Under the pieces are notes generated by a model. That model worked only from the letters and a program-made list of their open reading frames with translations. It did no database searches and was not told the origin of the DNA. The translations under genes and the position numbers were made by a program. From Candidatus Gracilibacteria bacterium (GTDB lineage Bacteria; Patescibacteriota; Gracilibacteria; BD1-5; UBA2023), in contig JAQUAB010000001.1 of NCBI GenBank assembly GCA_028687475.1, positions 310,001 to 374,000 on the forward strand: a DNA stretch of 64,000 nucleotides. Reading direction: 5' to 3'. Position 1 is the first letter of the stretch. Every line of letters begins with the position of its first letter. This document shows, one piece after another, positions 36,860 to 48,111 of this stretch.

Positions 36860-36936
36860 TGGAGCAGGTAATGGGACTCGAACCCACAACAGCCGCCATG
36901 GCAAGGCGGTACTCTAGCCAATTGAGCTATACCTGC
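36860..36936 (-). tRNA. tRNA-Gly (anticodon GCC)
   Basis: 77 bases with encoded CCA. Acceptor GCAGGTA pairs with TACCTGC; anticodon loop TTGCCAT holds GCC; T-loop GTTCGAGTC. Reads GGC/GGU. It is the natural ligand candidate for the glyS T-box at 44.5 kb. A tRNA-Gly with anticodon TCA, needed to read UGA, is not in this window. Confidence 0.95.
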
Positions 36937-42988: not shown

Positions 42989-44383
42989 TTAGCAACCTTT
43001 CGATTTGAGCCAAGTGATGAGATTCTCGATTTTCACAATTTCTTGTTCTCCCGTATCACGATCGCGAACCGTCACTTGACCTTGATCGTAGTTCTCTGGT
43101 TCGACACAGATAGAGAATGGGATACCGATTTCATCTGCACGAGCATATCGCTTTCCGATAGTTCCCGCTTCATCATATTCACACATGAATTCACTCGAAA
43201 GAAGTGAATAGAGTTCATCCGCTTGTTCTGAGAATTTTTTCACGAGTGGAAATACTCCAACCTTCACTGGTGCAACCTGTGGTGCAAAACGCATCACTAC
43301 ACGACTTCCCTCTTCATTCGTCACCTCATCATACGCATCACACATAGCTGCGAGCGTGAGACGAGAAAGTCCGATAGATGGCTCGATCACGTATGGAATA
43401 TACTTCGTATTATCAAACGGATCGAAGTAGGAGAGATCTTGTTTCGAGAGGGACATATGCGCATTGAGATCATAGTCCGTACGATTCGCGAGCGTTGAGA
43501 TTTCTCCCCAACCGAATGGAAAGAGGTATTCAAAATCTCCAGCCCGCTTCGAATAGTGTGGAAGTCCTTCTTTTGGGATTTCGACAAAACGAACCTTCTC
43601 TGCCTTGAATCCGAGAACTTCCGTAAAGAATGTTGTCTCGTTTTCGAGCCATTCCTGGAAGAGTTCTGCATCAGTTCCTGGTTTGCAGAAATATTCAATC
43701 TCGATCTGTTCGAATTCACGAGTTCGAAAAATGAAGTTTTTCGGAGTGATTTCATTGCGAAATGCCTTTCCGCACTGTGCGACACCGAATGGGATTTTTT
43801 TGCGAGAACTGCGAGCAATGTTCGGGAAGTTCACGAAGATTCCCTGAGCTGTCTCAGGACGAAGATAGACAAGAGAAAGTGCATCTTCTGTCGTTCCCTG
43901 ATGTGTCTGGAGCATGAGATTGAATCGCTTTACATCACCCCAATCTTTCGCACCACAATTCGGACATACAATATGACCGAGCTTCATATATGCATTGAGA
44001 TCATCGAGAGAAGTCTTATCTCCAGCCCAACTGTTCGGTACAGGAAAATTCGCATCTTTTTCGAGTGCTTCTTCGATGAGCTTATCTGCGCGATGACGAG
44101 TATTACATCCACGACATTCCATGAGTGGATCAGAAAATGATCCAACATGACCCGACGCAACCCACACATTTGGATTCATCATGATTGCTGCATCGAGAAG
44201 TACCATATCTTTTCGCTTCTGAACAAAAGTCTTCATCCAGAGATTTTTGATATTTTCCTTGAGAAGGATTCCGAGTGGACCGTAGTCCCATGAGTTCGCA
44301 AGACCTCCGTAGATCTCAGAACCCTGATAGACAAAACCTTTTGTTTTCGCAAAGGTAACGAGTGTTTGCATATCTGCTGCCAT
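42989..44383 (-). CDS. glyS: Glycyl-tRNA synthetase (single-chain, alpha2 type)
   Basis: Charges all tRNA-Gly, including any tRNA that reads UGA. 464 residues of the class II homodimeric type found in archaea, eukaryotes and many bacteria (GSEIYGGLANSWDYGPLG; RPETAQGIFVNF; FRNEITPKNFIFRTREF; the final EPSIGLSRL motif). Cys-x2-Cys pairs (CRGC and CPNC) look like a zinc site. Of roughly thirty glycine codons not one is TGA. ATG 44383 begins MAADMQTLVTF. It is preceded by a T-box leader. Confidence 0.96.
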   Translation of the reverse strand: MAADMQTLVTFAKTKGFVYQGSEIYGGLANSWDYGPLGILLKENIKNLWMKTFVQKRKDMVLLDAAIMMNPNVWVASGHVGSFSDPLMECRGCNTRHRADKLIEEALEKDANFPVPNSWAGDKTSLDDLNAYMKLGHIVCPNCGAKDWGDVKRFNLMLQTHQGTTEDALSLVYLRPETAQGIFVNFPNIARSSRKKIPFGVAQCGKAFRNEITPKNFIFRTREFEQIEIEYFCKPGTDAELFQEWLENETTFFTEVLGFKAEKVRFVEIPKEGLPHYSKRAGDFEYLFPFGWGEISTLANRTDYDLNAHMSLSKQDLSYFDPFDNTKYIPYVIEPSIGLSRLTLAAMCDAYDEVTNEEGSRVVMRFAPQVAPVKVGVFPLVKKFSEQADELYSLLSSEFMCEYDEAGTIGKRYARADEIGIPFSICVEPENYDQGQVTVRDRDTGEQEIVKIENLITWLKSKGC

Positions 44384-44422: not shown

Positions 44423-44600
44423 AAAAAAGACCCACAAAAAAGAATAAACTTTCTTGGGGTCCTTTTAATTTTGAATTCGTAATCTTGAATTTTGAATTAT
44501 TTCGGACGGTTCCACCCAAGTTCTCTGAATCCAGAGCAACTTCATTGTGCTTCTTTCTCCTCCGTAGAGCGCCACCTGAACATCAACAGAAAAAGAAAAC
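44423..44600 (-). promoter_or_regulatory. T-box riboswitch controlling glyS
   Basis: Minus-strand leader from a promoter with -35 at 44630-44635 (TTGCTT) and -10 at 44608-44613 (TATACT). Stem I arms 44588-44597 and 44551-44560 (ten pairs) enclose a loop with a GGC candidate specifier; Stem III is CTCTG-GATT-CAGAG (44523-44536). T-box motif TGGAACCG lies at 44507-44514. Antiterminator: TTGGG pairs with CCCCAA and GTCC with GGAC around the seven-base bulge TGGAACC. The same GGACCCCAAG arm pairs with CTTTTTTG-TGGGTC as a terminator (44429-44463) followed by six T. Confidence 0.85.
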
Positions 44601-44717
44601 TGAGTGTAGTATAAAAACTCCAGAAGAAAAAGCAATAAAAATTCACAAAAAACATATCAAATATTTGCAAAAGCAAATGAATTGTGAGAAGATACTATGG
44701 TCAATTAAATATAAAAC

Positions 44718-45762: not shown

Positions 45763-48111
45763 ATGATTCTCACGAAATCCCTTCTGCATACAACGGATAC
45801 CTATATCAAGAAACTGCGCGAAGTAGGCATCGAGACCGTGCGAGATTTTCTCTCGCTTTTTCCGCGTGGGATCGAAGATAAGAGTGAGATGATTGAGGAT
45901 TTTTCTCTCATCAATATTAAGGAGAAACAAGCCATAAAGTGCAAAATCGAACTCCTCACGGAAGAGAGCACGCGCAACAAGAAACTCCTCATCAAGGCCG
46001 TTCTCGCGGACAAAAGTGGATTCCATGCGGAAGCCGTCTGGTGGAATCGTCGCATGCTCCTGACACAATTCCATCCTGGAGATATAGTCATCATCTATGG
46101 ACAGGCGAAGTATGAATATGGGCGACTCTCGTGGAATAGTGCTGATATCGAACATTACCGAGAAAAACGTCGAGAAGTTCTGCCTGTATATTCTGATGTG
46201 AACTATATTCCTGGGAATTGGATTCGTGAGAAAATGGCATTGTTGCGCGGATATATCGATGATATTCCGGATGAGATTCCAGACGATATCCGCCAGAAAA
46301 AATGACTCCGACGCAAAAATGCGAATATTCGTGATATCCATTTTCCAGAATCAATAGAGGCTTTTGAGAGAGCAAAACAAGAACTCGGATATGGAGAACT
46401 TTTTGTCTTCCAGAAACGCGGTCTCGATAAAAAATATAACGCACTTGCGGCAAGCGAAGGACATGCGCGAGCAACACCACTCGACACGGAGCTCGTGAAG
46501 TCGCTCATTGCCGATCTTCCCTTTCCGCTCACGAACAAGCAGAAAATCGTGCTTTTCCAGATTCTCAAGGATATGGAGCAACCGCACGCCATGGCACGAC
46601 TCCTGCAGGGTGATGTCGGAACTGGGAAAACTGTCGTGGCACTTATTGCTGCAATCCATATGATTCTTAGCAATCGAATGAAAAATTCAAAATGAAAAAT
46701 TTATTGAAATGTATACCTTGAGGCACAAAATGAAAGTACCAATGACTCGAAATCTTGAATTATTAATCTTGAATCTTGAATCTGATTACAAGTTGCCATC
46801 ATGGCTCCGACGGAGATTCTCGCACGCCAGCATTTCGCTGGCAATGAGGCTTGGCTCATGAAGTGGTGAATCCGATCAGATCTCCTTGTCGGATCACTCA
46901 CAGCACGGATGAAAGAAGATGCACGAGAGCGACTCAAGTCTGGAAATACGGATATTATTTTCGGTACCCATGCGCTCATCCAAGATTCAGTCCAATTCGC
47001 GAATCTCGGATTCGTCGTCGTCGATGAACAACACCGATTCGGAGTCGAGCAACGGAAAGTTTTGGAAGAATACTGTTCGAAAATTCAAAATTCTAAATTT
47101 AAAATTCAAAATGATAATAAAAAAAATCTTGTACCTCAAGGTATACATTTCAATAAATCTTGAATCATTAATCTTGAATCTAGTATAGTTCCCCACAGAC
47201 TGAATATGTCTGCAACTCCAATCCCGCGTACACTCGCACTCACGCTCTATGGTGATCAGGATGTATCGATTCTCGATGAATATCCAGTAGGGCGAAAGCT
47301 AATACATACACGAGTTGTTCGAGAAGATCAACGCGTCGAGATGTATCGTTTTATCGAAGAAGAGATTCGACAATGAAGACAAGTTTACTGGATTTCTCCA
47401 TTGGTTGATAGCAAAAAGAATATGGAGATGAAAAGCTGGAAAAATGGGGAGTCCGAGGGGGCGACACTGTCTGAATGAAGATGAAAACAGTTTTCTGATG
47501 AGCGACAGCAGAGTGGGAATGAGTTTGTCGACCCTTCGGGAGCTTTTGGTACTTTTCAATCATGAAAAGTACGGGATTCGGAATCGAAAGAAGATATCGC
47601 TTCCGCGGTCGAGATGCAGATCACTCTTTCGACCATATTCCCGAAGCTCACCATCGGACTCATCCATGGAAAAATGAGTGGAAAAGAAAAAGATAGAATC
47701 ATGCAGGATTTTTATGAGAATAAGATTCATATCCTCTCTTCCACCTCCGTTGTTGAAGTGTGAGTGAATAATCCGAATGCGACGATTATCTGTATCGAGG
47801 CAGCGGAAAGATTCTGACTCTCGCAACTCCACCAGTTCCGTGGACGCGTCGGTCGAGGTGATGACCAGTCATATTGTTATCTCTTCACAACAAAAGAATA
47901 CAAAACTGATCGACTGAGAGCCATGGAACAGACGAACGACGGATTCGAACTGGCAGAGATTGACCTCGAACTCCGATGACCAGGTGAAGTCTATGGTGTC
48001 CGTCAATCATGAGTTCCTGATCTTCATTTCGCAGATATCACTGATTTTGCTCTCGTCTCAGAAATCAGAGCAGATATAGAAGAATGGATGAAGTGAAAAA
48101 GTCAAAAATAG
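45763..48111 (+). CDS. recG: ATP-dependent DNA helicase RecG
   Basis: Branch-migration helicase for stalled forks. 782 residues: wedge (OB) domain at the N-terminus, motif I GDVGTGKT near residue 290, Ia [10 protein letters not shown], motif [53 protein letters not shown]. Around twenty TGA-glycines. Three insertions interrupt it: after motif I (46684-46788), after DEQHRF (47079-47176), and before motif IV (about 47402-47585). The first two share related AT-rich words and lie in loops. All keep the frame open. Confidence 0.93.
46684..46788 (+). repeat. AT-rich insertion 1 in recG
   Basis: Adds about 35 residues between motif I and motif Ia, ending TCTTGAATCTTGAATCTG. Its core near ATGTATACCTTGAGGCACA appears inverted in insertion 2, and it shares words such as AATCTTGAATTATTAATC with it. 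Confidence 0.75.
47079..47176 (+). repeat. AT-rich insertion 2 in recG
   Basis: Adds about 33 residues between [17 protein letters not shown] and [11 protein letters not shown]. The core TGTACCTCAAGGTATACAT is the reverse complement of the core of insertion 1; both end with words like ATTAATCTTGAATC. Confidence 0.75.

Follow-up and report, generated by a model that had tools for sequence, protein, structure and literature searches.

A probable T-box with an ultrashort Stem I in the glycyl-tRNA synthetase leader of a Gracilibacteria genome

The 64,000-nucleotide stretch of contig JAQUAB010000001.1 analysed here (positions 310,001 to 374,000; below, the window) comes from the 1.06-Mb genome of a member of the Candidatus Gracilibacteria group, and carries on its minus strand glyS, the gene for glycyl-tRNA synthetase (GlyRS). 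The leader of this gene, at window positions 44601–44423 of the same strand, is very probably a transcription-attenuating T-box with an ultrashort Stem I. The sequence and its comparison with related leaders showed a set of conserved helices, two mutually exclusive folds, glycine codons at the specifier position, and a location before glyS. An earlier note, made from the letters of the window alone, had named the parts of a T-box in this leader; all of them are present on the minus strand, and the span given there, 44423–44600, fits the leader well.

Parts of the window leader

The candidate promoter TTGCTT-16-TATACT (44608–44635), read from the sequence, is located just upstream of Stem I, and the transcript is expected to start near position 44601. 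The ultrashort Stem I (44550–44598) begins with the outer helix UUUCUUUUUCU/GGAGAAAGAAG (44598–44588/44560–44550), followed by the asymmetric internal loop GUUGAUG/GGA (44587–44581/44563–44561), which resembles a T-box kink-turn. Above this loop a short inner helix leads to the apical loop GUGGCG (44575–44570) with the putative specifier codon GGC (44571–44573). Further downstream are the purine string AAGUUG (44537–44542), corresponding to the canonical RRRxG motif that precedes Stem III (PMC7583486), Stem III itself (CUCUG-GAUU-CAGAG, 44523–44536) and an AA linker (44522–44521). The antiterminator (44453–44520) is composed of the A1 helix CUUGGG/CCCAAG (44520–44515/44458–44453), the T-box bulge UGGAACC (44514–44508) and the A2 helix GUCC/GGAC (44507–44504/44462–44459), the loop of which contains a 41-nt insertion with ATTCAA-type repeats (44463–44503). 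Hence, the bulge is framed by two helices, as had been proposed, and GUCC/GGAC is one of them, while the other has to be corrected to CUUGGG/CCCAAG, since the TTGGG/CCCCAA pairing suggested before overlaps the A2 strand.

The leader ends with an intrinsic terminator, GACCC...GGGUC followed by U6 (44423–44461; −17.3 kcal/mol), the 5′ arm of which is the 3′ strand of A2/A1, with positions 44461–44453 shared. Because the terminator hairpin uses the 3′ strand of A1/A2, the antiterminator and terminator folds are mutually exclusive. Together with the U run, these exclusive folds point to transcription attenuation rather than to control of ribosome binding.

Another helix, AAGU/ACUU, in which the purine string would pair with the 5′ arm of A1, resembled an anti-antiterminator, with GAGU/ACUC as its counterpart in leaders L013 and L016. 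This idea was dropped, since the purine string belongs to the known conserved motifs and is still AAAG in leaders with a changed A1. The AT-rich repeat ATTCAAGATT..GAATTCAAAATT, which occupies the A2 loop (44463–44503), was also observed in a more diverged form within a recG-like reading frame (46684–46782 and 47082–47179); four matches to this repeat were found, against 0.01 expected.

Conservation and covariation in related leaders

To obtain the leaders of relatives, the GlyRS protein was searched against 59 related genomes and the sequences upstream were read. From 36 sequences, some of them with the A2 loop shortened before alignment, a covariance model (R1) was built for the antiterminator. 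R1 matched the window at 44451–44526 (genome C1:354451–354526; 2.5e-12), although the window sequence is itself among the training rows. The check for covariation among homologous leaders, which the earlier note had proposed, was strongly positive. In the R1 alignment 98.6% of the A1/A2 cells were paired and 7 of the 10 pairs contained double changes, with 55 double-change cells compared to 14.4 in shuffles; the pairing dropped to 63% when the partner was slid by one column. The bulge UGGAACC, the UGGN part of which is complementary to the tRNA-Gly end UCCA, was present in 68 of 69 leaders, and genome G003 has UGGGACC instead. A terminator that overlaps the 3′ strand of A1/A2 and is followed by a U run was detected in 66/68 leaders, and this overlap and the covariation both uphold the proposal of a transcription-attenuating T-box on glyS. 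The two exceptions were G030, in which a terminator was seen by eye, and G011, which has a long insertion.

Stem I was also conserved as a structure. The specifier hairpins have stems that vary widely from species to species without losing complementarity: in the two groups defined by loop length, 92.4% and 94.5% of cells were paired, and all five pairs of the inner helix were compensated in both groups; sliding by one reduced the pairing to about 40–60%. Because pairing was one of the grounds on which the aligned hairpins had been selected, a fairer test is the comparison with shuffled sequences: a hairpin with four or more pairs and UGGNA in its loop occurred in 57 of 69 leaders, compared to 5.6 expected and a maximum of 14 in 30 shuffles. 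The specifier hairpin sits on an asymmetric internal loop with an outer helix beneath it, and in several leaders this internal loop reads (U)GAUGA/GGA, like the T-box kink-turn. Wherever Stem I is present it is short, and has neither an elbow-binding part nor an accompanying Stem II. The RRRxG-Stem III-AA arrangement was counted by eye in 37/69 leaders, including the window leader with one extra base, while in the other 32 the purine string runs, also by eye, straight into A1 with no adjoining Stem III. In the leaders of G001 (L014) and G003 (L066) Stem I is absent, and Stem III is immediately preceded by a good promoter; these two could be either specifier-less T-boxes or products of decay.

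The base that follows GG in the apical loop is mostly A; the window and its near relatives have C, and other leaders have U or G. Where the specifier could be assigned, it was a glycine codon, with GGA, GGC, GGU and GGG all occurring, and it was never UGA. The probable ligand of the window leader is tRNA-Gly(GCC), encoded at 36860–36936 on the minus strand, which has the anticodon loop UUGCCAU, an encoded CCA, and a 3′ UCCA complementary to UGGA. The window loop GUGGCG could form four pairs with this tRNA, UGGC with G34-C35-C36-A37, which agrees with the specifier that had been suggested earlier. The fit of tRNA-Gly(UCC) to this loop is poorer, and tRNA-Gly(UCA) cannot pair with GGC; the 3′ end UCCA, with discriminator base U, is common to all three.

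We infer from these features that the leader binds tRNA, senses its charging and controls read-through in cells. Uncharged tRNA-Gly(GCC) would pair at two places, through its anticodon with the GGC at the apex of Stem I and through its 3′ UCCA with UGGA of the bulge, which would stabilise the A1/A2 antiterminator and allow RNA polymerase to read through into glyS. Charged tRNA would be excluded from the bulge, so that the 3′ strand of A1/A2 would form the terminator and glyS would be shut down.

Several observations weigh against the T-box assignment. The search of the window with the Rfam T-box model RF00230, at the gathering threshold and with E up to 10, gave no T-box match, so this check, also proposed in the earlier note, was negative, and the best score in the whole genome was only 10.8 bits, at another place. 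The model is blind to the window leader probably because it expects a long Stem I. The base of A2 is a G-C pair in the window and in 56/69 leaders, and the usual G-U pair was found in only 13; for this reading, the wobble was treated as a variable rather than a defining feature. The shortness of Stem I had been recognised before, but in the window the inner helix bearing the specifier is itself short, broken by a 2x2 mismatch, and weak. Two tests on the single sequence told little either way: the folding of the window leader gave a z-score of −1.5, with 16 of 200 shuffles folding as well, and a simple terminator scan returned 0 matches. Since the thermodynamic signal is weak and Rfam gives no match, the case rests on comparison, and the single sequence is no proof.

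The weak specifier helix with its mismatch, the 41-nt A2 loop with repeats, and the complete loss of Stem I in G001 and G003 would also fit a leader of T-box ancestry which has decayed here, leaving a constitutive terminator or no regulation. This explanation is unlikely, because A1, A2, the bulge, the terminator and the specifier loop are all kept in the window, and because the relative G019 (87% GlyRS identity) has the identical loop GUGGCG together with a different A2 insertion.

Occurrence before glyS and relation to UGA recoding

The downstream gene, glyS (42989–44383, minus strand), encodes a GlyRS of 464 amino acids (NCBIfam NF003211.1, 3.7e-178) with no in-frame TGA, and its nearest named glyS records are metagenome-assembled genomes of Gracilibacteria, with 72–87% identity. 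The element was recovered in 69 of the 77 genomes of the order to which the window belongs, 68 of them by R1 and G011 by pattern, the latter probably having escaped R1 because of its long A2 insertion. Among the eight others, G004, G015, G017 and G044 gave no usable glyS match, G016 contained only the C-terminal part, and G111, G112 and G119 were unchecked. Genome G007 holds two glyS T-boxes (L138 and L016), which gives 70 copies in 69 genomes; as this genome is 2.4 Mb with 6% contamination, the two copies probably represent two strains. In 64/70 copies the glyS start is 74–2462 nt downstream on the same strand, and in G039, G054, G055 and G126 it is 1.7–3 kb downstream. G012 and G113, where the contig ends before a downstream gene is visible, were left out of this check. 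Thus, the element precedes glyS wherever this could be checked among the copies of the order.

In about 20 genomes the gap between the T-box and glyS was 0.3–3 kb. The interval in G036, G055 and G012 (L085, L023 and L086) translates to a fragment resembling, by eye, REP-associated tyrosine transposases with an NPLKWE motif. The closest enzymes to the window GlyRS outside Gracilibacteria are from Clostridia, with about 55% identity, and their leaders are without a clear T-box. Horizontal transfer of the element with a clostridial glyS was considered and rejected, as the Clostridia relatives found gave no clear R1 or Rfam T-box match; the sole weak R1 match among them was L249 (E 0.03).

The organism reads UGA as glycine, as indicated by 17 TGA codons in the recG-like open reading frame, and it has tRNA-Gly(UCA). 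The earlier note had attached a special role to this recoding, and the 3′ UCCA of tRNA-Gly(UCA) would also fit the bulge UGGA, so that the leader could sense the charging of this tRNA or could have evolved from the UGA-glycine load on GlyRS. The data speak strongly against this. A UGA specifier was found in no leader of the order, and the code-25 relatives G060, G061 and G065 (probably Absconditabacteria), whose glyS contains in-frame TGA, are without a T-box in the glyS leader. Conversely, G059, G136, G143 and G145 have the element and no TGA in glyS, and glyS T-boxes are also found in other classes, in one case on a glyS that uses TGA as stop. Comparison with the distribution of in-frame TGA therefore shows that the element is not tied to the recoding and that the UGA tRNA is not what it reads, and a switch dedicated to UGA is highly improbable.

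T-boxes across the Candidate Phyla Radiation and known systems

R1 matches were obtained in 90 of 353 genomes in a class-wide scan, and in 72 of 380 genomes in a sample of the phylum. Within the class, they lie on glyS in G136, G143 and G145 and on thrS in several other families, and the glyS T-box of G059 was recognised by eye. For the 28 best new loci, L174 and L176 excepted, every downstream frame that was readable belonged to thrS, glyS, valS or ileS, and seven of the proteins downstream of the phylum loci were checked by NCBIfam. The loop codons read by eye in many loci were ACC for thrS, GGC or GGA for glyS, GUC for valS and AUC for ileS, and the valS leaders have the bulge UGGUACC. Several thrS, valS and ileS loci scored 28–60 bits with RF00230, with a top score of 59.6 bits (E 1.4e-10), while L011 and L013 scored 29.5 and 23.8 bits, all below the gathering cut-off of 93 bits. 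The kinship of these loci with known T-boxes is thus backed by a test. The weak R1 matches L163, L165 and L167, which lie within unrelated coding sequence, were dismissed.

The loci L148–L162, L166 and L168–L196 are thrS, valS and ileS T-boxes spread across the Candidate Phyla Radiation (CPR) below the Rfam cut-off, some of them with a long Stem I, and the valS locus L187 has an F-box-like CCGUUA.

An ordinary attenuator, with the terminator controlled by a non-tRNA factor such as leader translation or a protein, would be consistent with a terminator and a competing helix alone, but is the least probable explanation of all given the invariant UGGAACC bulge, the restriction of apical-loop codons to glycine, the matching codons on thrS, valS and ileS leaders and the change of N to U in UGGN on valS leaders.

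The T-box reading of the glyS leaders can be compared to systems already described. The leaders share with class I (transcriptional) T-boxes, such as B. subtilis glyQS (RF00230), the UGGN-ACC bulge between A1 and A2, the RRRxG-Stem III-AA arrangement, the competition of terminator and antiterminator, a glycine specifier, and the absence of Stem II, which is lacking in glycine T-boxes (PMC7583486). On the other hand, they differ from class I in a Stem I of about 45–50 nt with the specifier in its apical loop, in the lack of a distal part for the tRNA elbow, in a mostly G-C base pair of A2, and, for the window leader, in being missed by RF00230. This contrasts with the published view (PMC7583486), in which a long Stem I bearing the tRNA-elbow module is generally required for transcriptional T-boxes, Stem III is indispensable, and the aminoacyl group is sensed mainly by the G-U pair at the A2 base.

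Translational T-boxes already offer examples of a short Stem I that carries its specifier at the apex (PMC7583486), namely the class II ultrashort Stem I T-boxes of actinobacterial ileS (Sherwood et al. 2015, as cited in PMC7583486). The glyS leaders resemble these in both features; unlike them, they are terminator-based, have no Stem II or Stem IIA/B, and carry specifiers for glycine rather than isoleucine. The subthreshold thrS, valS and ileS T-boxes of CPR are similar in the UGGNACC discriminator, the aminoacyl-tRNA synthetase target and, in many of them, the matching hairpin-loop codons, while in several, unlike in the window leader, Stem I is longer or Stem II-like elements are present. 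The database TBDB relied on the Rfam model, plus a class II model run on Actinobacteria, and would probably miss these leaders because of the models used. A literature search, with most subscription journals outside its reach, gave no publication that links T-boxes to Gracilibacteria, Patescibacteria or CPR.

These comparisons lead us to favor, by a modest degree, the view that CPR has its own broad set of transcriptional T-boxes, in which the specifier is displayed at the apex of an ultrashort Stem I and is read with neither Stem II nor a contact to the tRNA elbow. Some subgroups would also dispense with Stem III (about 32 glyS leaders) or with Stem I (G001 and G003), so that the minimum working tRNA switch would be smaller than has been held. 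A large covarying transcriptional set without the elbow module, about half of it without Stem III, contrasts with the field review (PMC7583486), and CPR T-boxes are hidden by the Rfam cut-off. If the leaders work as proposed, they would be the smallest RNA that reads both the anticodon and the charging of a tRNA, and the set would provide a concrete regulatory mechanism for CPR bacteria.
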